A stretch of 42,270 nt of DNA from Acidimicrobiales bacterium (GCA_036399815.1 DASWMK010000274.1:1-42270), one strand, 5' to 3'; counted from the first letter of the stretch, positions 6,376 to 17,147 are shown. A program made the numbers and translations. Notes: generated by a model not told the origin, from the letters alone.

Positions 6376-6448
6376 GCCCCCATCGTCCAGTGGCCCAGGA
6401 CACCGCCCTTTCAAGGCGGCAACACGGGTTCGAATCCCGTTGGGGGTG
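6376..6448 (+). tRNA. tRNA-Glu (TTC anticodon)
   Basis: The cloverleaf is clear. The acceptor stem GCCCCCA (6376-6382) pairs with TGGGGGT (6441-6447), with a G-U first pair. The anticodon arm is CCGCC-CTTTCAA-GGCGG with TTC in the loop, and the T arm is CGGGTTCGAATCCCG. No CCA is encoded. The sequence just downstream is the low-GC block at 6510-9890, and tRNA genes are frequent integration sites. However, I could not find a convincing second copy of the tRNA 3' end. Confidence 0.95.
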
Positions 6449-6509
6449 CTGCGAGTCGTTGACCCCCATTTGGTTGACCGCTGGTATGAGGGGCGCCGCG
6501 CCCGGCCGG

Positions 6510-7649
6510 CTACTCGAACCGAAGCCGCACCGCGTCGTCCCTCAGCTGCTCGAGCCTCTCCGTCCTATCGGTGGCAAACCAGGCCTCCTCGTCGAAGTCG
6601 GGCTCGGGAGGGACGTGACCGTTCAGCCGATCCTCGACGAAGACGCTAAGCGCCCGCTCGGCCGCATCCGGCAACTTCGTCTCGTCGACTTCGGCGATCA
6701 GTCGGTCGCGGGCGGCTTCGACCGCAGTCGGTGACCCGGACACCAGGTGCTCGCCGTTCGCTCCGACGACCATGACCGCCAGCAGCGTCGCTGCCAGGTT
6801 GCCATAGGTCGGGAACTCCCTGAGCGATGTTGGACGGGCGGCGGCGAGGAGCAGGTGCTCCTGCACGCGCGTGAGTCGCTGGTCCCAGAGCGGGGCTCGC
6901 GGAGTCGGGGCGAGCATGATTTGCGCCGCATGCGACGGAGCCCGCATTTGAAGCCAGGTGCTCCGCATATCCCAGAACGCGTCCTCCGCGCGCACATGGT
7001 GGAGCACATGCACATGGTGGAGCACATCGAAGACGCGCGCTTCGGCATGATGGGCGAGGTCACCGAACGCACCGGCTCCTACGAGGGTCGAGATCCATGC
7101 GACGAGTCCGCGCTGCTCGTGGCTTAAGCCAGCCTCCAAGAGCCCAGCGCTCCAGGCGGCGATCGACGCGGCAGCGAGCGGTTCCACCAACCTGCCGAGG
7201 TGCTCGCAATCGACCTCGCGGAGGGCAACCCGCAGGTCGACCTCGCGATCGACCCACAGCCGTGTCGCCTCTAGCTGCTGCAGACGCTCTCCGAGGTAAG
7301 CACCGCCCGCCCCGGCGTCGGGAGCAGGAATCGGTTCCGCTGGCACGCCCGGCGCTCCCGGTCCGAGTCCGCCGCCGAGGTACCCACGGCGGACGAGCGC
7401 CCGGACCTCGTCGAGACTGCGGAACGGGATCTCGGCGCCGTCCTCGCCTCGGAGTCCCTCCTGGAAACCCGCGCGACACGCGTGCAGCGCCGTGGAGATC
7501 CGACCCACCGGGACGGGTTCGAGGTCGGGCACGGCGAGGAACACCGTCGAGGAGGCCTCGATCGACTCAGGTGGCCGAACCGACGCGAACAGGCGACCGT
7601 CGAGGACCGACCACGTGTCGACGTACCAAGTCCGGTCGGCTACTTCCAC
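6510..7649 (-). CDS. Unrecognised protein, third gene of the tRNA-linked operon
   Basis: A 379-residue, probably soluble protein. I chose the GTG at 7649, which overlaps the stop of the preceding gene by 10 bases; the frame upstream of it is a shadow. The N-terminal 60 residues look like a beta domain (WYVDTWSVLDGRLFASVRPP). A Gly/Ala/Pro-rich linker follows near residue 100, then a long helical region. A His-rich stretch VFDVLHHVHVLHHVRAEDAF lies near residue 220 and an acidic C-terminus follows. Codon use is visibly less GC-biased than in the flanking genes, which suggests a transferred block. I recognise no family. Its two partners are the genes immediately upstream. Confidence 0.75.
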   Translation of the reverse strand: MEVADRTWYVDTWSVLDGRLFASVRPPESIEASSTVFLAVPDLEPVPVGRISTALHACRAGFQEGLRGEDGAEIPFRSLDEVRALVRRGYLGGGLGPGAPGVPAEPIPAPDAGAGGAYLGERLQQLEATRLWVDREVDLRVALREVDCEHLGRLVEPLAAASIAAWSAGLLEAGLSHEQRGLVAWISTLVGAGAFGDLAHHAEARVFDVLHHVHVLHHVRAEDAFWDMRSTWLQMRAPSHAAQIMLAPTPRAPLWDQRLTRVQEHLLLAAARPTSLREFPTYGNLAATLLAVMVVGANGEHLVSGSPTAVEAARDRLIAEVDETKLPDAAERALSVFVEDRLNGHVPPEPDFDEEAWFATDRTERLEQLRDDAVRLRFE

Positions 7650-8527
7650 TGGTAGCCCTGTCCGTGAGCGGTGACCACGCGGGTCCGCATGTCGATGTCG
7701 TCGAGCCCGCTGGCGACGAGCTCGCGGCGCAGCAGCCAGAGCCACTCGACGGCCGGGAGTGTCCGGCCGGTGCTGAGCCGGCTGCGCAGCCGGGCCTCGA
7801 CTGCGACCTCGTCGGGCGACTCACGGACCTCCTCGACGTCCGCGAGCGTGAATGAGTCGGGCAGGTCGAGGTGGACCTCGATGAACTCCTGGTCGCGGAG
7901 CACCATGGCCGCGACCGTGCCGCTGGTGACCAGCCTCGGCTGGTGCTCCAGCTCGGGGAGCACCCGCATCAGAACCATGTCCCGGAGGTCGGACCCCCAC
8001 CGCCCGCGGATCCGCTCGACGACGAGCGCTGACCTTGGGTCATCCGGCTCGATGTCGGCGAGGGGTGGAAGGAGCAGGTCGTACGAGTCGCGGTCGAGCA
8101 GCTGGGTGGCGTCTTGGGCGACGCCGCGCTTGAGCACCATGCAGTACTCGCCGTAGTAGCGGACTCCAGCGCCGCCGAGCGCGACCGCTGCGAAGTAGGT
8201 CTGTTTCGGTCGGATCCCGATCTTGACGTCGACTCGCACCCGGTTGCGTGACGGCTCCGGCCGTGCGGTGCCAACGAGCGGGCGGTCGTAGAGGTTGAGG
8301 TAGCGGTTGTCAGGAAGCAGGGAAAGCAGCCCGGCGGCGCTGATGTTGATGACTGCTCGCAGCCCGGCGTCAGGCTCGTTGATCGCATTCGCGGCCACGA
8401 CCTGGTTGCTCGCGGCGAACCCTTGATTCTGGGGCAACGACTCCCAGTCCTGCACCCGCTCCGTCCACGTCCGTCCCGAGTTGAAGTAGACCGAGTCCAT
8501 CGCCTCGAGGGGATCCGGCCCGCTCAC
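7640..8527 (-). CDS. Unrecognised protein, second gene of the tRNA-linked operon
   Basis: The 295-residue soluble protein starts at a GTG in a GTGA overlap with the stop of the membrane gene upstream. The N-terminus runs VSGPDPLEAMDSVYFNSGRT. The central part, with VRVDVKIGIRPKQTYFAAVA followed by VRYYGEYCMVLKRGVAQDAT, looks like an alpha/beta enzyme-like or toxin-like fold, faintly reminiscent of ADP-ribosyltransferase-type DUF proteins. I would not call it on this evidence. The C-terminal third is helical and charged. Codon use is less GC-biased than in neighbouring housekeeping genes. It overlaps the downstream gene by 10 bases, so the three products are probably made together. Confidence 0.75.
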   Translation of the reverse strand: MSGPDPLEAMDSVYFNSGRTWTERVQDWESLPQNQGFAASNQVVAANAINEPDAGLRAVINISAAGLLSLLPDNRYLNLYDRPLVGTARPEPSRNRVRVDVKIGIRPKQTYFAAVALGGAGVRYYGEYCMVLKRGVAQDATQLLDRDSYDLLLPPLADIEPDDPRSALVVERIRGRWGSDLRDMVLMRVLPELEHQPRLVTSGTVAAMVLRDQEFIEVHLDLPDSFTLADVEEVRESPDEVAVEARLRSRLSTGRTLPAVEWLWLLRRELVASGLDDIDMRTRVVTAHGQGYQWK

Positions 8528-9225
8528 GCTTCTCCCCGAGCAAGGATCTCCGCCGCGACCGCGTCCCGGTCGCTGTCCGCTCCTGCATACGGCCGGGTGT
8601 TGACAGTCTCGATCACTTGTCGCCGAGTGGATTCGTCGAACCGGCCCCACGCCTCCTTGGCGGCAAGGAGTCCGTGGTACTGCTCGTTGCCCGACTTAGA
8701 GTCGGTGATCGCGGAGCGCAGCGCGTCGATGGTGACCAGCGAGGGGTCGCCGCGGAGCAGTCCCACGGCGAGAACCCGCTCTGCGGGTGATCCCTTCGCC
8801 AGTTGGGCCACGTCCTTAGGGTTCGGCTTGGTCGTGAAGGATCTGGTGCGGACCTGGTCGATAAGTGCATCCTGGAGCTTGACCTTCGCCGGCCGGTAGG
8901 CCGCGTCCTCACCGAGGGCCGAGTGGACGAATGCGTACGCCGACGCGACCTGGGTGATGCCGGCGCTGGAGAGCTCCTTGGCGACGTCGTGTCCGACAAT
9001 ACTGGCGAGCTCGGCGGTGACTTTGGTGTCGCCGTGACCAAGCGACAACGACCGCACTCGATTCCAGAACAGCGCCATCAGTAGGATGAATGCGCCAAGG
9101 AGCAGCCAAACGACGAGGACGCTGTCGGTCAAGTCGACGCCGCCGAGCCCGCCGACGCCCAGCATCGCCGCCCCGATGATCCCGACGGCGCTACGGACGA
9201 TGAAGTCCTTCGTGCTCGTCCCCAC
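8524..9225 (-). CDS. Two-helix membrane protein, first gene of the tRNA-linked operon
   Basis: The 233-residue protein has two membrane segments near the N-terminus (SAVGIIGAAMLGVGGLGG and VLVVWLLLGAFILLMALFW) and then about 165 helical cytoplasmic residues. One part, GSPAERVLAVGLLRGDPSLV, resembles HEAT-like helical repeats. The start is uncertain. The GTG at 9225 places the helices directly after the N-terminus, but the frame stays open to a GTG at 9507, which would add 94 residues of fairly plausible protein. The family is not recognised. A membrane protein coupled to two soluble unknowns beside a tRNA is compatible with a defence or conflict system, but the sequence does not prove that. 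Confidence 0.65.
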   Translation of the reverse strand: MGTSTKDFIVRSAVGIIGAAMLGVGGLGGVDLTDSVLVVWLLLGAFILLMALFWNRVRSLSLGHGDTKVTAELASIVGHDVAKELSSAGITQVASAYAFVHSALGEDAAYRPAKVKLQDALIDQVRTRSFTTKPNPKDVAQLAKGSPAERVLAVGLLRGDPSLVTIDALRSAITDSKSGNEQYHGLLAAKEAWGRFDESTRRQVIETVNTRPYAGADSDRDAVAAEILARGEA

Positions 9226-9561
9226 TGCAGTGGATGATAACGGACATCCATCGCAGCCATCCGAAATGTCTTGAGTCGCCGGAACCGGCCAAGCGAGCCG
9301 CGACGACGACGGGATGTCGTCGCCTTCGCCTTCGGCAGTCCCGGTGAGACCGGCGAGGGCTCGCCGGACTTCACCGGCGATCCACGTGGCAACGCTAGGG
9401 GAGGCGACCGATGGCTGCTGCAATAGCTCGCCCCAAGTCGGCCGTGTCGCACCCTTCGTCGTAAGGTTCGGCCAGGACCCGGGGTGGCGCAAGCACCGCC
9501 GGGGCACCTGACTGTCACTGCTTTCAATCGAATGCAGTGAACCGGGGCCGGGAAGGTCTCG
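9226..9561. other. Stretch without an assigned gene upstream of the tRNA-linked operon
   Basis: These 336 bases lie upstream of the three-gene operon. The minus-strand frame of the first operon gene stays open to 9507 and may be its true N-terminal domain if translation starts at the GTG there. Otherwise the stretch should hold the operon promoter, but I see no convincing -35/-10 pair. The sequence is less GC-rich than the surrounding chromosome. Confidence 0.4.
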
Positions 9562-9796
9562 GTGTGCGGAGAATCAAACCTCATCCAGCAGCTGGTCGAT
9601 CCGGTGTTCGGCGCCAAGATGGCGGAGCTCCGCAAGTTGGTGGAGGGGGTGCTGGCCAAGAGCGCAGCCCAGGCAGCGGCGGGTCTACGCCCGGCGGAAG
9701 CCCCGGGTCACGACCGAGCTGACGCCGGAGCAGCAGGCCATCCAAGACGCCATCAACGAGCTCGAGGCGGACGAGAAGCCGCCCAAGGCAGCCTGA
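9562..9796 (+). pseudogene. Small gene split by a frameshift
   Basis: Two plausible coding halves sit in different frames. From the GTG at 9562, frame 1 reads a sensible amphipathic sequence (NLIQQLVDPVFGAKMAELRK, then LVEGVLAKSAAQAAA) to about 9680. Frame 2 then carries RVYARRKPRVTTELTPEQQA followed by IQDAINELEADEKPPKAA, ending at the TGA at 9794-9796. Frame 2 has no start codon of its own, and frame 1 turns into Arg/Pro/Gly-rich shadow sequence after the crossover near 9675-9690. Joined, they would make a protein of about 77 residues. A real frameshift mutation, a sequencing indel or programmed shifting are all possible. Family unknown. Confidence 0.45.
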
Positions 9797-9799
9797 GCC

Positions 9800-9890
9800 T
9801 CACGCTGCGGCTTCCAGGTCCTCAACCAGCCGGACCAGTTCGGCCAGGCCGTCCCTGCTGGCGGGGTTGGAAAGAGCCGTGATGGGGGGT
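9800..9890 (-). pseudogene. Possible C-terminal remnant of an unknown gene
   Basis: In one minus-strand frame the last residues before a TGA (9800-9802) read APPITALSNPASRDG and then LAELVRLVEDLEAAA. This looks like a real amphipathic protein C-terminus rather than shadow sequence. No start codon or N-terminal part is present, because the upstream sequence belongs to the methyltransferase gene. With the neighbouring frame-split gene, whose stop lies four bases away, this suggests debris at the edge of an insertion. The evidence is weak. Confidence 0.25.
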
Positions 9891-9892
9891 GC

Positions 9893-10666
9893 TCAGGACG
9901 GCGGGTCGACGGCGGCGACGACGTGGAAGCACCTCGCCACCCCCCGGAACGGGTCGCGGGACCCGGCCAGCCACTCCACCTCGTAGGCATCGGCGGCCGC
10001 CTCAGGGTCGGCCGGCATGCCGGCGTGCTCGGTGAACAGCCCCACGCCGTACCACTCCTGCACGTGGGCCCCGAACTTCTCGAGGAGGGCGGTGACCTCG
10101 GCGAGGCTCGGCTCGCTCGTCGGCAGGTACTGGGCGCCCGTCTCCCGGCCGGCCTCGAGCGTCGCCCTGGCCTCCTGCCAGCGGCCCTTGACGGCGCTGC
10201 GCATGGCGGCCGCCTCGGGGTTCAGCGACAGCAGCGACACCAGCCCGCCGGGCCGGACCGTCCCGACCACGCCGGCGACGAACGGGGCCGGCTCCTCCTC
10301 GTACATGAGGACGCTGTGGCAGCAGGCGACGTCGAAGTCGGACCCGACGACCGCGGGCGCGTCGAGCCCGTCGCCGAGGACCAGCTCGACCCGGGCCCGC
10401 ACCTCGGGCGGCTCGCCCTCGAGCCGGCGCCTCGCGAGGTCGAGCATGTTCGGGTCGAAGTCGAGCACGGTGACGGTGTGGCCGTCCCTGGCGAGGGTGA
10501 TGGCCTGCTGCCCGTAGCCGCCGCCGACGTCGACGATGCGCCGGGGCCCGGGCGGCACGTGGCGGGCGATCGCCCTGCGGATCAGCTCGAACGACAGCTG
10601 CCCGCGGTTGCGGGCGTACGCCTCCGCCAGCTGGGCGGCGTGGCGCGACCAGTGGTTGTCCCTCAT
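9893..10666 (-). CDS. SAM-dependent methyltransferase, CmoM/SmtA-like, of the peptide operon
   Basis: The 257-residue class I methyltransferase starts at an ATG preceded by a strong GAGGAGG ribosome site and also overlaps the upstream hydroxylase gene as ATGA. The SAM site is IVDVGGGYGQQAITLA (residues 44-59), followed by VTVLDFDPNMLDLARRRL. The layout, with GQLSFELIRR before the SAM site, a CCHSVLMYEEEP segment and VRPGGLVSLLSLNPEAAAMR, resembles CmoM/SmtA, which in E. coli methylates the carboxylate of a tRNA wobble carboxymethoxyuridine. As the last gene of a peptide-modification operon it more likely methylates the peptide, possibly a carboxylate; that is inference. A housekeeping tRNA role remains possible. 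Confidence 0.85.
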   Translation of the reverse strand: MRDNHWSRHAAQLAEAYARNRGQLSFELIRRAIARHVPPGPRRIVDVGGGYGQQAITLARDGHTVTVLDFDPNMLDLARRRLEGEPPEVRARVELVLGDGLDAPAVVGSDFDVACCHSVLMYEEEPAPFVAGVVGTVRPGGLVSLLSLNPEAAAMRSAVKGRWQEARATLEAGRETGAQYLPTSEPSLAEVTALLEKFGAHVQEWYGVGLFTEHAGMPADPEAAADAYEVEWLAGSRDPFRGVARCFHVVAAVDPPS

Positions 10667-11619
10667 GGTGCGACCTCCTCGGTGTGCTGTTCGAGCCGCG
10701 CGAACCAGGCACGACCCTCGTCGGTCCATGCCGCCTTCTCCCGCAGGACGGCGACCGCCCCCACGAGGTTGGCGAGCGACTCCTCGGCTCGCCGGGCCAC
10801 CTCGGCCGGCGCGCCGCCCTCGTCCCGCCACAGGGCCAGCCCCGTCGCCATCCGGGCGAGGGCGTACGCCGCGTGGACGGTCCCCGACACCGGCCGGGGA
10901 TCGGGGCGCAGCGGGTGGCCGGCGAGGTCGGCCCCGTTGGTGACGAAGGGCTGGAAGCGCCGGCGCAGGACGAGCGCGAGGTGGGCGCTCTCGTGGACGA
11001 GCATCTCGAAGGCGGCCGGGACGCTGTCGTTGTAGCGCTCGCCGACGAAGACGGCGCCGAACACCTCGTCGGCGGTCGCCGACCTGAAGCCGCCGCCCTC
11101 GACGTGGACGACGGCCCTGACCTGGAGGCGGAGCTCCGTCGCCGCCTCCGGCCAGACGCGGTAGAGGACGGCGAGCGCCCGGTCGACGTTGGTCCGCCGC
11201 GACCCGAGCGGCGCGGCGGCCAGCCGCATCGGGGGCTGGGGCCACAGCTGGGTCACCTGGGCGTCCACCGTCGCCACGCCCCAACGGGCCCACGGCTCGT
11301 CCCGGTCGGCGCCGACGTGCTCGGGCGCGGCGGAGGGCGTCCTCGACGCGGCCAGCAGGTCGCTCACCGGCAGCCCGCCGTCCGCCACGAGGTCAGGCTG
11401 CTCGACGGCGACGCGGGCGGCCCAGACGGCGCGGGGGTGCAGCGATCGGACGCCGTACGCCCGTCCGGCGCCCGTGTCGGCCCACCCGAGCCGGGTGGCC
11501 TGGTGGACGAGGCGGACGGCCAGGGCGCCGTGGTAGGCCCGCAGCCAGGCCGCCGTGCGCCCGGGGTCGAGGCCGACGGCGGCCGCCGTGCACGAGGGCG
11601 CCGCCGCGGGGCGGGTCAC
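10663..11619 (-). CDS. HExxH-type putative peptide beta-hydroxylase (stand-alone)
   Basis: The 318-residue protein belongs, by motif, to the HEXXH putative peptide-modification family. Characterised members are iron- and 2-oxoglutarate-dependent peptide beta-hydroxylases acting in RiPP pathways. The metal motif HESAH is at residues 209-213. It is followed by PFVTNG and HPLRPDPRPVSGTVHAAY, where Arg242 could hold 2-oxoglutarate and His249 is a candidate third metal ligand. Before the motif lies DEVFGAVFVGERY. It is plainly homologous, about half identical by eye, to the C-terminal domain of the MFS fusion protein in the same operon. The GTG start overlaps the M41-like gene as GTGA, and the stop overlaps the methyltransferase. 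A peptidase function is the main alternative for an HExxH protein. Confidence 0.85.
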   Translation of the reverse strand: MTRPAAAPSCTAAAVGLDPGRTAAWLRAYHGALAVRLVHQATRLGWADTGAGRAYGVRSLHPRAVWAARVAVEQPDLVADGGLPVSDLLAASRTPSAAPEHVGADRDEPWARWGVATVDAQVTQLWPQPPMRLAAAPLGSRRTNVDRALAVLYRVWPEAATELRLQVRAVVHVEGGGFRSATADEVFGAVFVGERYNDSVPAAFEMLVHESAHLALVLRRRFQPFVTNGADLAGHPLRPDPRPVSGTVHAAYALARMATGLALWRDEGGAPAEVARRAEESLANLVGAVAVLREKAAWTDEGRAWFARLEQHTEEVAP

Positions 11620-12221
11620 GCCGTCGCCTCCGCCGCCGGCGCCCGCTCGACGAGGGCCAGCACGTCGGCCTCCGTCAGCGACCACCCGTCGCCCGTCCCG
11701 GGGTGGAGCCCGGCGGCGACGCCGGCGAGGTCCGTCCCGGTGAGCCCGGCGACGACCGCCTCGATGGCGGCCCGCTCGGCCTCGACCCAGGCGACGGTGC
11801 GGGCCATCGCGGCGGCGAACGGCTCGGGCAGGAGGGCGTGCACCAGGTGCTGGAGGTCGGCCATCACGTCCGGCTCGGGCACGCCGAAGCCGCGGCACCA
11901 CAGGGTCAGGTCGCCGAGCCACGAGCGCGGCATGTGGTGACCGAGCACCACGAACTCGGCCGCGCTGCCGGCCATCACGAAGAGGAAGGCCGCAGCCGGG
12001 TCGGCGCGCACCCAGGCGAGGGGGTCGTCCGCCCCCATGACGACGCCGCCCGCCCGATGGCCGCCGCTGTGGGCCACCCACCCGCCCGGCGGCCGGACCC
12101 GCACCTCGGCGAAGCGGATGCCGTGCCGGGCGGCGGCGACCGCGTGGGCGGCCTCGTGGACGACGACGTGGGGCAGCACGCCGTGCCGGCCGCAGACCTC
12201 GTCGACGTCCACGCCGTTCAC
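11616..12221 (-). CDS. M41 (FtsH protease domain)-like stand-alone zinc peptidase
   Basis: The 201-residue protein has VVVHEAAHAVAAARHGIRFA, with HEAAH at residues 22-26. It then has MAGSAAEFVVLGHH (residues 83-96) and a WLGDLTLW segment with Asp104. This order of HEAxH, a GG/AG-x-AAE helix and a downstream Asp is that of the FtsH/M41 zinc peptidase domain, but no AAA ATPase part is attached. It sits between the two hydroxylase genes with 4-base overlaps on both sides, so it belongs to the pathway. Possible roles are leader-peptide cleavage, product degradation for self-protection, or a structural role. It is distinct from the HExxH hydroxylases: it lacks their DPRP and GTxHAAY motifs. Confidence 0.75.
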   Translation of the reverse strand: MNGVDVDEVCGRHGVLPHVVVHEAAHAVAAARHGIRFAEVRVRPPGGWVAHSGGHRAGGVVMGADDPLAWVRADPAAAFLFVMAGSAAEFVVLGHHMPRSWLGDLTLWCRGFGVPEPDVMADLQHLVHALLPEPFAAAMARTVAWVEAERAAIEAVVAGLTGTDLAGVAAGLHPGTGDGWSLTEADVLALVERAPAAEATA

Positions 12222-14563
12222 GACGGGACCGCGACCGGCAGGGCGCCGGCCCGCTCCTCCAGCCGGGCGAACCAGGCCCGCCCGGCGTCGGTCCAGGCCG
12301 CCTTGTCGCCGAGCACGGCGATCGTGGTGCACAGGTCGGCGCGGCACTGCTCGGCCCGCTCGGCCACCTCGGCGGGGGCGTCGGGGTCGCCGTCGCGCCA
12401 GCGCGCCAGCCCCGTCGCCATCCTGGCGAGGACGTAGGCCGCGTGGAGGGTGCCGGAGATCGGCCGGGGGTCGTCGCGGAGGGGGTGCATGGCCATCTCG
12501 TCGCCGTTGGTCACGAACGGCTCGAAGCGGGCCCGCAGGAACAGGGCGTGGTGGCCGCCCTCGTGGAGGATCATCTCGAAGGCCGCCGGCACCGTGTCGA
12601 GGTAGCGGTCGCCCACGAACACGGCGCCGAACACCTCGTCGAAGCTGGCCGACCCGAACATGGCGCCCTGCACGTGGACGATCGAGCGGACGTAGGAGTG
12701 GAACTCGACGGCCGCCTCGGGCCACACGTCCGCCAGGACGGCGAGCGCCTCGTCGACGTGGCGCCGGCGGTCGCCGAGGGGGAGGGGGGCGAGGCGGAGC
12801 CGGTCGTCGACGTCGATGCGCTGGGCGTACGACGCGAGGTTCTCGACCCCCCAGCCGACCCACCGCTCGGCCGTGCCGGCGCCGACGTGCTCGAGCACCG
12901 GCGCCGGGCCGCGGCCCTCGTCGAGCATGGCCCGCACCGGCACCGCCTGCCCGTCGAGCAGGGCGGGGTCCCTCGCCGCGATCCTGGCGGCCCACACGGC
13001 GCCGGGGTGGAGCCAGCGGACGTCGGCGGGGTCGGCCGAGCCGGGGGCGGCCCAGCCCAGCCGCTCCGCCTCGTGGACGAGGCGCCGGGCGAGGGCCTGG
13101 TAGTAGGCGACGGTCAGCGACGACGACACCCGGGGGTCGATGTCGGCGGCGACGATCTGGTCGTGGAACGTCTCGGGGAGGCGCCGGCGGGGGTCGTCCG
13201 GCTCGCGGCCGGGCGCGGCGTCGGTGGGGCTTCTGGCCGGCTCCGGCTGGCGGGCGGCGTCGGCCGGGCCGCCGGCGTCGGCGTCGGCGTCGGGGGCGGC
13301 CGTCTCGCCGGTGGCCGTCGCCCGGCCGGGGGACCGCAGCCCGAGGAGCAGCGGCGGCGTCACGCAGGCGAGGACGACGGCGGCGACGGTCAGCGCCGTC
13401 CGCTCACCGGCCATGGCGCCGACGGCGCCGCCGACCGCCAGGCCGGCGAGGGCCGCGACCTGCAGGATGTTGTTGGCCAGCGCCATGGTCCTGGCGACGG
13501 TGCCGCGGGCGGCGGCCTCGGCCTGGAGGCTGCCGAACACGGCGGCGATCACGATCGTCCCGCCGAAGGCGCCGGCGAGCTCGAAGTTGACGACGGCGGC
13601 ACCGCCGAGCCAGCCCGGCCCGACGAAGGGCAGGGCGGCGACCGACCACAGGGTGGCGAGGAGGCCGACGGCGCCCGTCCACCGCCCCATCCGCTCGGCC
13701 ACCCGGCCGACGAGGAACCCGCCGACCACGCCGCCCACGGCGCCGACGGCGAGGAGCAGCCCGATGGCCGACTCGCGCATGTCGAGGGCGTGCAGGCAGA
13801 ACAGGACGAAGACCGCCTCGGTGATCCCGTTCACCAGCGCGATCGCCGTCAGGCACCACACCCCGCGCCGGGTGGCCAGCTCGCGCCCGATCGCCACGAC
13901 CTCGCCGACCGAGGCCCGCCCCCTGGTGCGGGGGGCCGGCGGAGGAGCGGCGTCGGCGGGCGGCCGGATCCTGCGGGTCAGGAAGGCGCCGACGAGGAAC
14001 GAGACGGCGTCGGCCACCAGGATGACGGGGGCGGCGAGCACGGCGAGCAGCGCGCCGCCGGCCGCCTGCCCGGCGATGTCGGTGGCGCTCCTCGTGCCGC
14101 TCAGCCGGCCGCCGGCGGCGACGAGCTGGTCGCGTGGGACGAGCTCGACGACCACCGGCCCCGACGTCGCCGCGAGGCAGACGCCGATCACCGCCTTCAT
14201 CGCCACGATGGCGAGCAGGCGCTCGAAGGTGAGCGCGCCGAGCCACCACAGGAGCGGGACGAGGGCCACGAGGGCCCCGAGCACCACCTGCGCGGCGGCC
14301 ATGATCCCGAGGCGGGACCGGATCGAGTCCGACCACATCGCCGCGGGCACCTGGAGGAACAGCCCCGGCAGCATCCCGGCCGCGCCGAGGAGCGCCATCT
14401 GGGCCGGCGACGCGCCGAGCGTGGCGGCGGCGATGATCGGGACGACCACGATCGACACGGCCGACCCGGCGCCGGAGACGGCCAGCGCGGACCAGTACGT
14501 CCGGAAGCCGCGGTTGTTCCAGAGGCTCGGCCGGGTGCCGTCCGGCCCGCCGTGCTCGGCCAC
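12218..14563 (-). CDS. MFS exporter fused to an HExxH peptide hydroxylase domain
   Basis: One uninterrupted 781-residue frame. Residues 1-405 form an MFS transporter with about 12 membrane helices, beginning SLWNNRGFRTYWSALAVSGA and containing SDSIRSRLG in the first cytoplasmic loop. Residues 406-460 are an Ala/Asp/Pro-rich linker. Residues 460-781 are a complete HExxH domain (HEGGH at 667-671, HPLRDDPRPISGTLHAAY with His707), homologous to the stand-alone copy two genes downstream. The linker has no stop and no good start, so I read a true fusion. The GTG at 14563 lies 5 bases after the M29-like gene. The linker and catalytic domain should face the cytoplasm, putting hydroxylation at the export gate. 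The substrate is inferred to be the 51-residue peptide. Confidence 0.85.
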   Translation of the reverse strand: MAEHGGPDGTRPSLWNNRGFRTYWSALAVSGAGSAVSIVVVPIIAAATLGASPAQMALLGAAGMLPGLFLQVPAAMWSDSIRSRLGIMAAAQVVLGALVALVPLLWWLGALTFERLLAIVAMKAVIGVCLAATSGPVVVELVPRDQLVAAGGRLSGTRSATDIAGQAAGGALLAVLAAPVILVADAVSFLVGAFLTRRIRPPADAAPPPAPRTRGRASVGEVVAIGRELATRRGVWCLTAIALVNGITEAVFVLFCLHALDMRESAIGLLLAVGAVGGVVGGFLVGRVAERMGRWTGAVGLLATLWSVAALPFVGPGWLGGAAVVNFELAGAFGGTIVIAAVFGSLQAEAAARGTVARTMALANNILQVAALAGLAVGGAVGAMAGERTALTVAAVVLACVTPPLLLGLRSPGRATATGETAAPDADADAGGPADAARQPEPARSPTDAAPGREPDDPRRRLPETFHDQIVAADIDPRVSSSLTVAYYQALARRLVHEAERLGWAAPGSADPADVRWLHPGAVWAARIAARDPALLDGQAVPVRAMLDEGRGPAPVLEHVGAGTAERWVGWGVENLASYAQRIDVDDRLRLAPLPLGDRRRHVDEALAVLADVWPEAAVEFHSYVRSIVHVQGAMFGSASFDEVFGAVFVGDRYLDTVPAAFEMILHEGGHHALFLRARFEPFVTNGDEMAMHPLRDDPRPISGTLHAAYVLARMATGLARWRDGDPDAPAEVAERAEQCRADLCTTIAVLGDKAAWTDAGRAWFARLEERAGALPVAVPS

Positions 14564-14568
14564 GACCG

Positions 14569-15690
14569 CTACCCGACGAGCGCCCGTGAGGCGCCGGTCG
14601 CGGCGACGCGGAGCTGGCGGTAGCCGAACCCGCAGCAGTCGCCGGTGATGTCCTCGTCGCGGACGTCGGGGTGGGCGGCGCACGTGACGGCCAGGTCGTG
14701 CAGGTCGAGCACGCCGGGCTCGCCGTCGATCTCGATCCTGGCGCCGTCGGCGATCAGGTCGAGGTGGATGTCCTCGAGGTAGGACACGCGGGACGGCGGC
14801 TGGTTGTGCTGCCCGAACCCGACGTGGACGCCGGGGCGGCGCTCGTTCAGGTGCGAGTTCTCGGGGAGGAACCGGCGCACGCCGACGTTCGTCCCGAAGC
14901 CCAGCTCGCCGACGTTGCGGCCGTACGGGCGGGTGAAGCACAGGCCGACCAGCTCGTGGATCCGCGGGTTGGCGCAGGAGAAGTCGACGGCCCGGCCGCC
15001 CTCGACCTCGACGGTCAGCGGCGTGTCGGCCAGCCGCATGTCGAGGCGGCTGATGACGTTGCAGTTCACCGCGCCGTCGGCCACGAGGACGCCCTCGATG
15101 GCCGCCGGGTAGGTGGCGATCTCGCCGGCGGGGAGGATCGTGAAGTGGCCGCCGCGGTGGAGGCCGCGGTTGCTGATCCAGTCGTAGCGGGACGAGTCCA
15201 GCTCGACCTGGAGATCGGTTCCCCCGTCGGACTTTATGCGAATTGTCTTTCGCCCATTGAGCCGACTCAGCAACGTCGCATTGCGCTGCGAGAGCTCGTC
15301 GGGCGTGAGGTTCAGGCCCTCGGTGAAGAACTCCTCCGAGGCACTGATGATGCGGACGATCTGGCAGTCGTCGCCGTACTCCTCGAGCACGCTCGTGAGC
15401 GGGCCGAAGTGCGACATCGACTCCTTCTCCAGGGTGAAGATCACCAGGCGCCCGGCGAGGTCGTCCTTCGCGGGCAGCACGCCCCGCAGCCGCTCCTCGA
15501 ACGCCTCGTCGACGAGGGGCCGCATGGCGACCAGGCTCGGCTCGACGCCCCTGGCCTTCACGCCGGCGGCGAGCCACGCCGCCGCGTCACGGCTGTCGGG
15601 CGAGTACACGACGACGACGGCATCCCGCCGCTCCAGCCCGGCGTAGGCGGACAACAGCCTGTCGACGCCCCGAAAGATCTCTGGTCCCAC
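14569..15690 (-). CDS. M29 aminopeptidase-like protein of the peptide operon
   Basis: The 373-residue protein starts at a GTG with an AAGGAG site six bases upstream. The N-terminal half is an alpha/beta domain (LSAYAGLERRDAVVVVYSPD). The C-terminal half carries the metal-ligand pattern of M29 (aminopeptidase T/PepS): VGELGFGTNVG with Glu262, GVHVGFGQHNQ with His289, and IHLDLIADG with His309 and Asp311. Spacings are close to but shorter than in classical M29 enzymes, and I could not place the first Glu ligand with confidence. It may trim the leader or the N-terminus of the product. Alternatively it may be a catalytically altered relative with another role in peptide tailoring. Confidence 0.75.
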   Translation of the reverse strand: MGPEIFRGVDRLLSAYAGLERRDAVVVVYSPDSRDAAAWLAAGVKARGVEPSLVAMRPLVDEAFEERLRGVLPAKDDLAGRLVIFTLEKESMSHFGPLTSVLEEYGDDCQIVRIISASEEFFTEGLNLTPDELSQRNATLLSRLNGRKTIRIKSDGGTDLQVELDSSRYDWISNRGLHRGGHFTILPAGEIATYPAAIEGVLVADGAVNCNVISRLDMRLADTPLTVEVEGGRAVDFSCANPRIHELVGLCFTRPYGRNVGELGFGTNVGVRRFLPENSHLNERRPGVHVGFGQHNQPPSRVSYLEDIHLDLIADGARIEIDGEPGVLDLHDLAVTCAAHPDVRDEDITGDCCGFGYRQLRVAATGASRALVG

Positions 15691-15737
15691 CGCCTGCTCC
15701 TTGCTCTGGCGTGATGTCCGGTCGGCTGCCGCAGCCG

Positions 15738-15760
15738 GTCCGGGGGGCGAGCCCCCGGAC
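15738..15760 (-). terminator. Hairpin after the precursor gene (partial terminator or attenuator)
   Basis: A perfect 9-bp stem GTCCGGGGG / CCCCCGGAC encloses a GCGAG loop, with no run of U after it. It lies 19 bases downstream of the precursor stop and before the ribosome site of the M29-like gene. In peptide operons such a hairpin commonly stabilises or partly terminates the short precursor message, so that more precursor than enzyme is made. The placement supports that reading; its efficiency cannot be judged. Confidence 0.6.
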
Positions 15761-15779
15761 CCGCTGCGTCCAGTGGTGG

Positions 15780-15935
15780 CTACTGCTCGTTCGTCTTGTA
15801 CGCGATGTACCAGGCGACCTCGTTGCTGTCGGTCCGGTCGAAGGCGGACGGCTCCAGCGCGTACTCGGCCTCGAGGGCGGTCATCTCGCCCATGACGCCG
15901 GCGACGAGGTCCTGCATCTGCTGCTCTGAACTCAT
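15780..15935 (-). CDS. Candidate RiPP precursor peptide, 51 residues
   Basis: A short gene with a good ribosome site (GCGAGG, 7 bases before ATG) at the head of the peptide operon. The first half, MSSEQQMQDLVAGVMGEMTA, is helical, acidic and Met/Gln-rich like a leader. The second half is LEPSAFDRTDSNEVAWY followed by IAYKTNEQ: polar, with three Asp/Asn candidates and an aromatic AWYIAY patch, and no Cys, His or Gly-rich core. The lack of Cys rules out thioether or thiazole chemistry and fits side-chain hydroxylation or carboxylate methylation. No double-Gly cleavage site is seen. Precursor identity is inferred from size, position, the hairpin behind it and the enzymes that follow. Confidence 0.7.
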   Translation of the reverse strand: MSSEQQMQDLVAGVMGEMTALEAEYALEPSAFDRTDSNEVAWYIAYKTNEQ

Positions 15936-16354
15936 GACGTACCTCGCAGTCGTTGTGGGGAACTTGTCGGTGTCCGGGTGAACGACGAGGCGTCACCGGC
16001 CAGCGGAGTCGAACATGGGAAGGTCCCCGCCGACGCTTGGATGACCCGCCAATCCCGTACGAGAGTCGACTATACGACGGGTCCGTCATCCTGCCTAGGG
16101 GTGCGTGACTTTTTTGTTACGAAATACAATCGCCGGCATGACAATAAACGCTGAACCCGCTGGTCAGGCCGCCCGACCGGATGCCGGAACCGTGTGACGA
16201 CGCCGATCTGCGAGCGCGGCCATATGCCCGACTTCTGTGAAATGAGGGGAGGTGAGCGGAGGCCGATATCCCGATCGGAGCGCCGGCCGGCACCCCGGGC
16301 GGCCGGTCGTCGGGGACGCGACGGGGGAGGCCTCTGCTACCCTGACCCCTCCCT
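15936..16354. other. Intergenic region between the peptide operon and the tRNA genes
   Basis: These 419 bases hold no gene I can support. The half nearest the precursor should carry the operon promoter and a leader. A small AT-rich block at about 16107-16150 (with CTTTTTTGTTACG) stands out from the GC-rich surroundings and may be a regulator or RNA polymerase contact site. The part just before 16355 should hold the tRNA promoter; no clear consensus is seen. Confidence 0.5.
16069..16074 (-). promoter_or_regulatory. Possible -10 element for the peptide operon
   Basis: On the minus strand the hexamer TATAGT is one of few AT-rich hexamers upstream of the precursor. It would give a leader of about 125 bases. 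No matching -35 hexamer is found 17 bases further upstream, so an activator or another sigma factor would be needed. The AT-rich block at about 16107-16150 lies just upstream of it. Confidence 0.25.
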
Positions 16355-16429
16355 GGTCCCGTGGTGCAGTTTGGAGTGCACGCCGGCCTGTCAAGCCGGA
16401 GGCCGCGGGTTCAAATCCCGTCGGGACCG
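16355..16429 (+). tRNA. tRNA-Asp (GTC anticodon)
   Basis: The acceptor stem GGTCCCG (16355-16361) pairs with CGGGACC (16422-16428). The anticodon arm is CCGGC-CTGTCAA-GCCGG with GTC in the loop, and the T arm is GCGGGTTCAAATCCCGT. G is the discriminator and no CCA is encoded. It is followed after 26 bases by tRNA-Phe, probably on one transcript. Confidence 0.95.
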
Positions 16430-16455
16430 CTGCCGCACGGCGACGTGCGGCCCTG

Positions 16456-16528
16456 GGTCGGGTAGCTCAGTTGGCAGAGCGCGCGCCTGAAAAGCGCGAG
16501 GTCACCGGATCGACGCCGGTCCCGACCA
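16456..16528 (+). tRNA. tRNA-Phe (GAA anticodon)
   Basis: The acceptor stem GGTCGGG (16456-16462) pairs with CCCGACC (16521-16527). The D arm is GCTCAGTTGGCAGAGC, and the anticodon arm is CGCGC-CTGAAAA-GCGCG with GAA in the loop. The T arm stem is ACCGG/CCGGT with an unusual loop, ATCGACG, in which the normal TTC of the T-loop reads ATC. The discriminator is A and the full CCA is not encoded. The T-loop oddity may be worth checking against close relatives. Confidence 0.92.
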
Positions 16529-17147
16529 CCGGTCCCGCCGCCCGGCGGTGGCGGACGTCGCGCAGCGCCGGCGGCGCCGCCCGGGCAACCCTGCCGCTCG
16601 GTCGAGGCGGCGGCCGACCGCCCACCGCCTTTCCGACGGCCGGCGCGTCGATCCGACCCGGCCTGCCCGTCGCCACCGAATGCGCGCCGGTCCGGCGGCC
16701 GACCGCGGCGACCCCCGCGTGGAGCACCCGCACGGCCGCCGGCCCGGCACCGCGGCGCAACGGCGGCGACGCGGTCGTCGAGCGCCCGCAGGCCGACAGC
16801 TCGGCACCGCGGCGCGACGGCGGCGCACCCGCTCGTCGAGGACCCGCGCGGCCGACAGCTCGGCACCGCGGCGCGACGGCGGCGACGCGCTCGTCGAGGA
16901 CCCGCGCGGCCGCCGGCTCGGCGCCGCGGCGCGACGGCGGCGACGCGGTCGTCGAGCGCCCGCACGCCCGTCGGCTCGCCACCGCGGCGCGTCGAACGGC
17001 CGACGGCTCGAGAGGTTCGATCGGGACGTCCCGGAGCGGGCGACAGCCGCCGGCGCGCCGACCGCTCACGCCGTCCCGTTCGTCGCCGGTGGTGGCGGTC
17101 GCCCCTCCCGGAGCAGCGGCCGACGCGCTACCGGCCGGTCGGCGCGG
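16529..17147. other. Gene-free region downstream of tRNA-Phe
   Basis: About 620 bases between tRNA-Phe and bldC. Every open frame here is an Arg/Ala/Pro-rich artefact of GC-rich sequence, with no start site or family I can support. The main content is the tandem repeat at 16705-17000. The rest, including 17000-17147, shows nothing recognisable beyond CG-rich short inverted repeats that may serve as terminators for the converging tRNA and bldC transcripts. Confidence 0.55.
16705..17000. repeat. About 58-bp tandem repeat, roughly five copies
   Basis: Units begin at 16745, 16802, 16861, 16919 and 16977, each with C-G-G/C-C-A/G-CCGCGGCGC. They run through GACGGCGGCGACGCG, then GTCGTCGAG and a CCCGC-GGCCG block, ending in GGCT or AGCT. 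Spacings are 57, 59, 58 and 58 bases. A half unit precedes the array (about 16705-16744), and a fading partial unit ends it near 17000. As 58 is not a multiple of three, the array is not a protein repeat. There are no spacers, so it is not a CRISPR array. Each unit contains CCGCGG and GTCGTCGAG-like self-complementary parts and could fold. Confidence 0.75.

Follow-up and report, generated by a model that had tools for sequence, protein, structure and literature searches.

Within the window, that is, the whole 42,270-nucleotide stretch of Acidimicrobiales DNA that was analysed, six genes were found in succession on the minus strand, running from 15935 to 9893 in the order given in Table 1. As the initial annotation had described, a hairpin follows the first of them, and from the MFS fusion onward neighbouring genes overlap by 4 bases, at 12218-12221 (P0003/P0004), 11616-11619 (P0004/P0005) and 10663-10666 (P0005/P0006). 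The hairpin folds as RNA at −47.8 kcal/mol, a stability that 1 of 200 shuffled sequences equalled. Strong hairpins occupy the same place in three Streptomyces relatives (L037, L038 and L059; z −2.3, −3.3 and −4.1), and the fold at this place is unexceptional in L061, L062 and L075 (z −0.8 to −1.4). We infer that the hairpin may serve as an attenuator or a stabiliser of the transcript.

Table 1. Features of the operon in gene order
Feature	Position	Strand	Remarks
Precursor peptide gene	15780..15935	(-)	51 aa; core ..NEVAWYIAYKTNEQ at the C-terminus; 15 related loci have homologous small genes; HMM tests; motif specificity
Hairpin between precursor gene and rest of operon	15715..15775 (approximate bounds)	(-)	z −2.8; same place in L037, L038, L059
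M29-like protein	14569..15690	(-)	GTG start after AAGGAG; C-terminal DEDITGDCCG; M29 fold from profiles and, with a poor model, from fold search
MFS transporter fused to complete HExxH hydroxylase	12218..14563	(-)	MFS at about residues 1-410, HExxH at about 456-781
Small M41/M50-like protein	11616..12221	(-)	HEAAH and GSAAE..GDL motifs; weak Pfam M50 match, below cut-off
Stand-alone HExxH hydroxylase	10663..11619	(-)	TIGR04267
SAM-dependent methyltransferase, nearest tRNA methyltransferase CmoM	9893..10666	(-)	45-47% identical to those beside clusters L090 and L092

The operon is surrounded by housekeeping genes of purine synthesis, and an island is possible. Together with three Pfam-less genes it fills the interval between tRNA-Glu (6376) and tRNA-Asp and tRNA-Phe (16355 and 16456) at window positions 6376-16530; the three genes are consecutive on the minus strand at 6510-9507 (6510-7745, 7640-8650 and 8524-9507). 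The earlier statement that no classical synthetase is in view held: known RiPP synthetases (radical SAM, MNIO, LanB, YcaO, graspetide) were absent both from family scans of the operon and ten flanking genes and from the gene list, a search confined to the window.

Searches of the window's own order, covering 148 genomes and 395 of the class, found no close relative, and a first scan of genome contigs with one HExxH protein gave nothing. When both HExxH proteins were used, the contig scan returned two Streptomyces loci whose M29-like gene is 60% identical to that of the window. Searches with the M29-like family then yielded 7 strong matches in 296 genomes of the genus Streptomyces and 6 (4 of them new) in 308 genomes of its family; a class-wide sample of 395 added two other actinobacteria, and IMG/VR a single phage contig. 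Of the 15 related loci, Streptomyces or its family accounts for 12, other actinobacteria for 2 and a P2-like phage for 1; with the window they make 16 (the window; L037, L038, L059-L064 and L089-L092, 12 loci; L075 and L076; L077). The only other TIGR04267 protein in the class sample of the window (L005/L036, G070:C33:6578-10030) adjoins a class I methyltransferase, and no M29-like gene was found there. HExxH matches on plasmids sit in clusters of other kinds, with LanB/ThiF/TldD (L039) or YcaO (L040).

In every one of the 16 loci a small gene lies directly upstream of the M29-like gene. Conservation of an encoded precursor beside modifying enzymes supports two earlier claims, that the small gene would recur in related neighbourhoods and that the operon is of the RiPP type. 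An HMM of the relatives' peptides, with the window left out, placed the window peptide at the top of 561 window ORFs (E 1.3e-9, the runner-up at 0.18) with 34 bits, the best of 2000 shuffles reaching 10.9. After four more members had been included, the peptide was found at E 1.6e-6 and 24.6 bits, against 16.1 for shuffles. Judged from these sequence scores, the peptide gene is more than a chance reading frame.

The leader halves of the peptides have a stretch resembling LV..L.EL.AAE in common. The initial annotation expected a variable C-terminal core; the opposite was seen, the core being the most conserved part of the peptide. Its form [VSM]AWx[IV][AS][YT] ends 12 of the 16 peptides, and the pattern AWx[IV][AST][YT], placed at most 20 residues from the end, occurs in 27 of 13,247 six-frame ORFs of the fetched loci. 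All 27 are copies of peptide genes beside the M29-like gene, which makes the motif specific to these peptides. The core A-W-Y-I-A-Y-K-T stands at the C-terminus of the window peptide (VAWYIAYKT); the phage L077 has VAWYIAYST, L090-L092 have VAW[KR][VI]SYST, and L076 carries two copies of SAWSISYST in one peptide. Six peptides (L037, L038, L059, L060, L061 and L089) have MAWF[IV][AS]T at the very end; GMWRITYST (L062) and EAMYIAYGT (L075) are close forms outside the strict AW set, and L063 and L064 have diverged to SAWETED. RiPP cores tend to vary, and the fixed VAWxIxYST-like tail is therefore less suggestive of a diversifying antibiotic than of a conserved target or of a cofactor-like or signalling function.

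Both HExxH proteins of the operon (motifs HESAH and HEGGH) scored well above the curated cut-off of 40 of TIGR04267, the model of 2-oxoglutarate HExxH-type peptide beta-hydroxylases, with 75.3 and 73.2 bits, and the pair matched the solved hydroxylase ChlH (8s5f) at E 4e-9. An alignment with ChlH matches the HExxH motif as well as the downstream Arg and His of DPRP.SGT.HA, and most relatives conserve these residues. By sequence, both proteins are thereby members of the 2-oxoglutarate peptide hydroxylases, as the initial annotation had proposed; because of the same scores, match and conserved residues, the view that they are plain peptidases, or group with plain metallopeptidases, was rejected. 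The domain in the MFS fusion is 54% identical to the stand-alone protein, closer than to any relative found. Published members of the family hydroxylate Asp, His, Gln, Pro or Phe in RiPP precursors (PMC12636437, PMC13060819). ChlH/ChlBH, PflC, PosC, PesO and BpmH/BipH share TIGR04267 membership and the motifs with the operon proteins, whereas the partners in the operon differ, radical SAM and MNIO proteins being absent, and one copy is fused to an MFS transporter. No description of such a fusion was found in the literature searched.

We then compared what accompanies the peptide across the loci. The peptide and the M29-like protein are constant (16/16); the HExxH protein is not. In six relatives (L037, L038, L059, L060, L061 and L089) the pair is joined by an MFS transporter, a JmjC_2 oxygenase and a HExxH protein. 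In L090-L092 it is joined by a PhyH-type oxygenase and an MFS transporter 44-45% identical to that of the window; in L090 and L092 the opposite strand nearby encodes a methyltransferase sharing 45-47% identity with that of the window, so that relatives of both operon proteins occur in PhyH-type clusters, and in L091 a gene for an M16 peptidase lies downstream. In all three loci the MFS gene is followed by a conserved protein of about 90 residues (MYLTKTTVDT...) (L090:10915-11190, L091:10042-10311, L092:10583-10858), the L091 copy giving no Pfam match. The HExxH homologs of L062 (9815-10753; REVSH) and L075 (8203-9081; no motif at all) lack the first or all metal ligands and are possibly pseudo-enzymes that only bind peptide. 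A different methyltransferase, with no oxygenase seen, accompanies the pair in L063 and L064, and in L076 a shortened M29-like gene continues into a methyltransferase that shares 42% identity with that of the window, at a junction that is either a deletion or an assembly join. The M41/M50-like protein, possibly a leader peptidase, had no homolog in the related clusters or in plasmids. The proposal that the same six genes travel together thus found no support, no relative having all six. Nor was it supported that the HExxH enzymes define the class: some relatives pair them with JmjC, some have PhyH instead, two carry degenerate copies, and in others none was seen.

Since the M29, M41/M50 and HExxH proteins are all peptidase-like, and subunits can be encoded by small genes, the operon might be taken for a proteolysis or stress module with the small gene as a structural subunit, and not for a RiPP system. 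We regard this as very improbable: the HExxH domains belong to a hydroxylase family, the conserved part of the peptide is its C-terminal core, doubled in L076, and exporters and JmjC or PhyH oxygenases accompany the peptide in relatives. That this is a RiPP operon at all is, in our judgement, highly probable.

The M29-like protein was examined by profile and by structure. It falls in the fold of M29 peptidases and 2,5-dihydroxypyridine dioxygenase (mixed profile E 3e-16 to 2e-9). AlphaFold2 models built from 3 and 4 sequences had mean pLDDT of 43 and 49, at which just the M29 fold is readable; the top eight matches in the fold search of the low-confidence model were all M29-fold. By both routes the nearest solved relative is the iron dioxygenase 7cn3. 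The metal site of CgnB, an M29-derived protein of the crocagin pathway, consists of Glu161, Glu252, Glu274, His280, His291 and Asp293 (PMC10070186), and E190, E262, E283, H289, H309 and D311 are the aligned counterparts of all six. This site is intact in every complete member of the family.

Active M29 aminopeptidases carry EEHYHD (PMC7023490), and retention of the fold and of all metal ligands would suit an aminopeptidase that trims the modified peptide. However, all 15 members that reach the site have EEHNHD, with Asn296 of the window protein in place of the catalytic Tyr, a replacement found in none of 34 other M29-like proteins compared. The Pfam M29 score, 14.3 bits, lies below the gathering threshold of 27, and the gene always adjoins the precursor gene, even with an M16 peptidase near (L091). 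We rejected an active aminopeptidase, which is unlikely, on the loss of the Tyr and the Pfam score. The fold and metal ligands are shared with AmpT, AmpS and PepS and with 7cn3, but the M29-like protein differs from the first three in its Asn and from all four in an extra DCCG tail and in its constant association with a small peptide gene. Like the Asn, the C-terminal DCCG-like motif is limited to the peptide-paired family.

The crocagin pathway of Chondromyces crocatus (CgnA/B/C/D/E/L) offers, by analogy, the nearest working model. There, the M29-derived CgnB and CgnE bind the precursor, with no activity of their own seen, and deliver it to CgnC, a 2-oxoglutarate dioxygenase that oxidises Tyr and Trp; methylation by CgnL follows (PMC10070186). 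The operon likewise has a protein of the M29 fold, with counterparts of all six metal ligands of CgnB, and a 2-oxoglutarate/Fe oxygenase and a methyltransferase whose predicted substrate is a short aromatic core; neither system has a classical synthetase. The dioxygenase partner is of the HExxH type in the operon and JmjC_2 or PhyH in relatives. In contrast, the core reads W-Y-I-A-Y instead of Ile-Tyr-Trp, the leader is longer and acidic where that of crocagin is basic, a single M29-like copy is present, with its family-specific Asn and DCCG, and no CgnD hydrolase is found. The methyltransferase is nearest to CmoM (8joz and 4htf), CgnL (7pd7) being absent from its 28 structure matches, and the profile match of the M29-like protein to CgnB (6zsv) is not significant at E 0.29. 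Full membership of crocagin was rejected on the different core order, the different kind of methyltransferase and the lack of a significant sequence match to CgnB. A crocagin-like principle still fits the operon, with a real chance of a new class. The biphenomycin clusters (bip/bpm; PMC12707348, PMC12257519) combine an MFS exporter with JmjC and HExxH hydroxylases, as six Streptomyces relatives do; they add MNIO, B12 radical SAM, an arginase-like protein and TldD, which the operon does not have, and their precursor is unrelated.

Since the peptide and the M29-like protein are always present and the oxygenases change, we favour, with moderate confidence, a RiPP family defined by this pair, in which oxygenases are interchangeable and the M29-like protein delivers the peptide; it is not described in the papers accessible to us. 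The M29-like protein, having lost peptidase chemistry, would bind the helix-like LV..L.EL.AAE stretch in the leader half and present the core AWYIAYKT to Fe(II)/2-oxoglutarate oxygenases, as CgnB and CgnE do for CgnC. The two HExxH hydroxylases, one tethered to the exporter, would place hydroxyl groups at two positions, most probably within the conserved W-Y-I-A-Y stretch. Methylation would fall to the methyltransferase, trimming of the leader possibly to the M41/M50-like protein, and export of the product to the MFS domain. The initial annotation conjectured that hydroxylation followed by methylation may be all the chemistry there is.

We arrived at delivery because the pair is constant, the core motif is specific and doubled in L076, and the hydroxylases are kin to TIGR04267 and ChlH; further because three oxygenase families (HExxH, JmjC_2 and PhyH) adjoin the same M29-like protein, as would befit a recruiter for exchangeable oxygenases, EEHNHD is universal among members reaching the site, CgnB and CgnE set a precedent, and the methyltransferase and MFS transporter have relatives in related clusters. 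Delivery is less certain than the RiPP nature of the operon. Counted against it are the non-significant CgnB match and the lack of CgnB and CgnE among the fold-search matches of the low-confidence model, the lack of a visible oxygenase in L063, L064 and the phage pair, the HExxH homologs that have lost metal ligands in L062 and L075, and a core unlike the Ile-Tyr-Trp order of crocagin.

The phage locus bears on a further reading. At L077:4730-6180 (IMGVR_UViG_2791355399_000004), an insert between the tail-completion and baseplate genes of a P2-like phage holds only the peptide and M29-like genes. It is AT-rich (35% GC against 59%), is closed by an inverted repeat with a T-run, its own terminator, and the reading frame of its M29-like gene has one break, at a long T-run. 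The 23 kb record yielded no HExxH gene, and no other copy of the pair was found in the phage, E. coli or viral collections searched, the viral scans returning the same contig only. The M29-like protein might itself be the class-defining metal enzyme. It would modify the W-x-I-x-Y core and form, with the peptide, the minimal system, to which oxygenases and methyltransferase would add tailoring steps afterwards. In favour of this reading, no other protein occurs at all loci, every complete member has kept the metal site, the nearest solved relative is an iron dioxygenase, the Asn and DCCG motif are family-specific, and L063 and L064, like the phage, have no visible oxygenase. We nevertheless consider a catalytic role doubtful: CgnB and CgnE, which alone among RiPP proteins of this fold have been studied, bind peptide and showed no activity themselves, and oxygenase partners may be encoded elsewhere in the genomes that seem to lack them. 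Equally tentative is a new RiPP class in which an M29-fold metalloprotein modifies the VAWxIxYST-like core, with a minimal two-gene form as cargo of a P2-like phage and an expansion by interchangeable 2-oxoglutarate oxygenases in actinobacteria.

On the delivery reading, one testable biosynthetic family would unite the M29-like protein, the conserved core and three 2-oxoglutarate oxygenase families, and the crocagin principle of a peptidase-like protein steering oxygenases would extend to Streptomyces, other actinobacteria and a phage. Genome mining by known synthetases is likely to miss such clusters. Accessible papers, most subscription titles and all supplements aside, contained no description of this cluster type. 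CgnB/CgnE homologs were reported by the crocagin authors from about 100 genomes, some of them actinobacterial (PMC10070186), so part of the family may be in their lists. A Streptomyces cluster at L068:6500-12500 combines a radical SAM/SPASM protein, a JmjC oxygenase, an MFS transporter and a subtilisin-like gene with an M29-like protein short of most metal ligands; from this cluster, M29-like proteins may be wider RiPP helpers.
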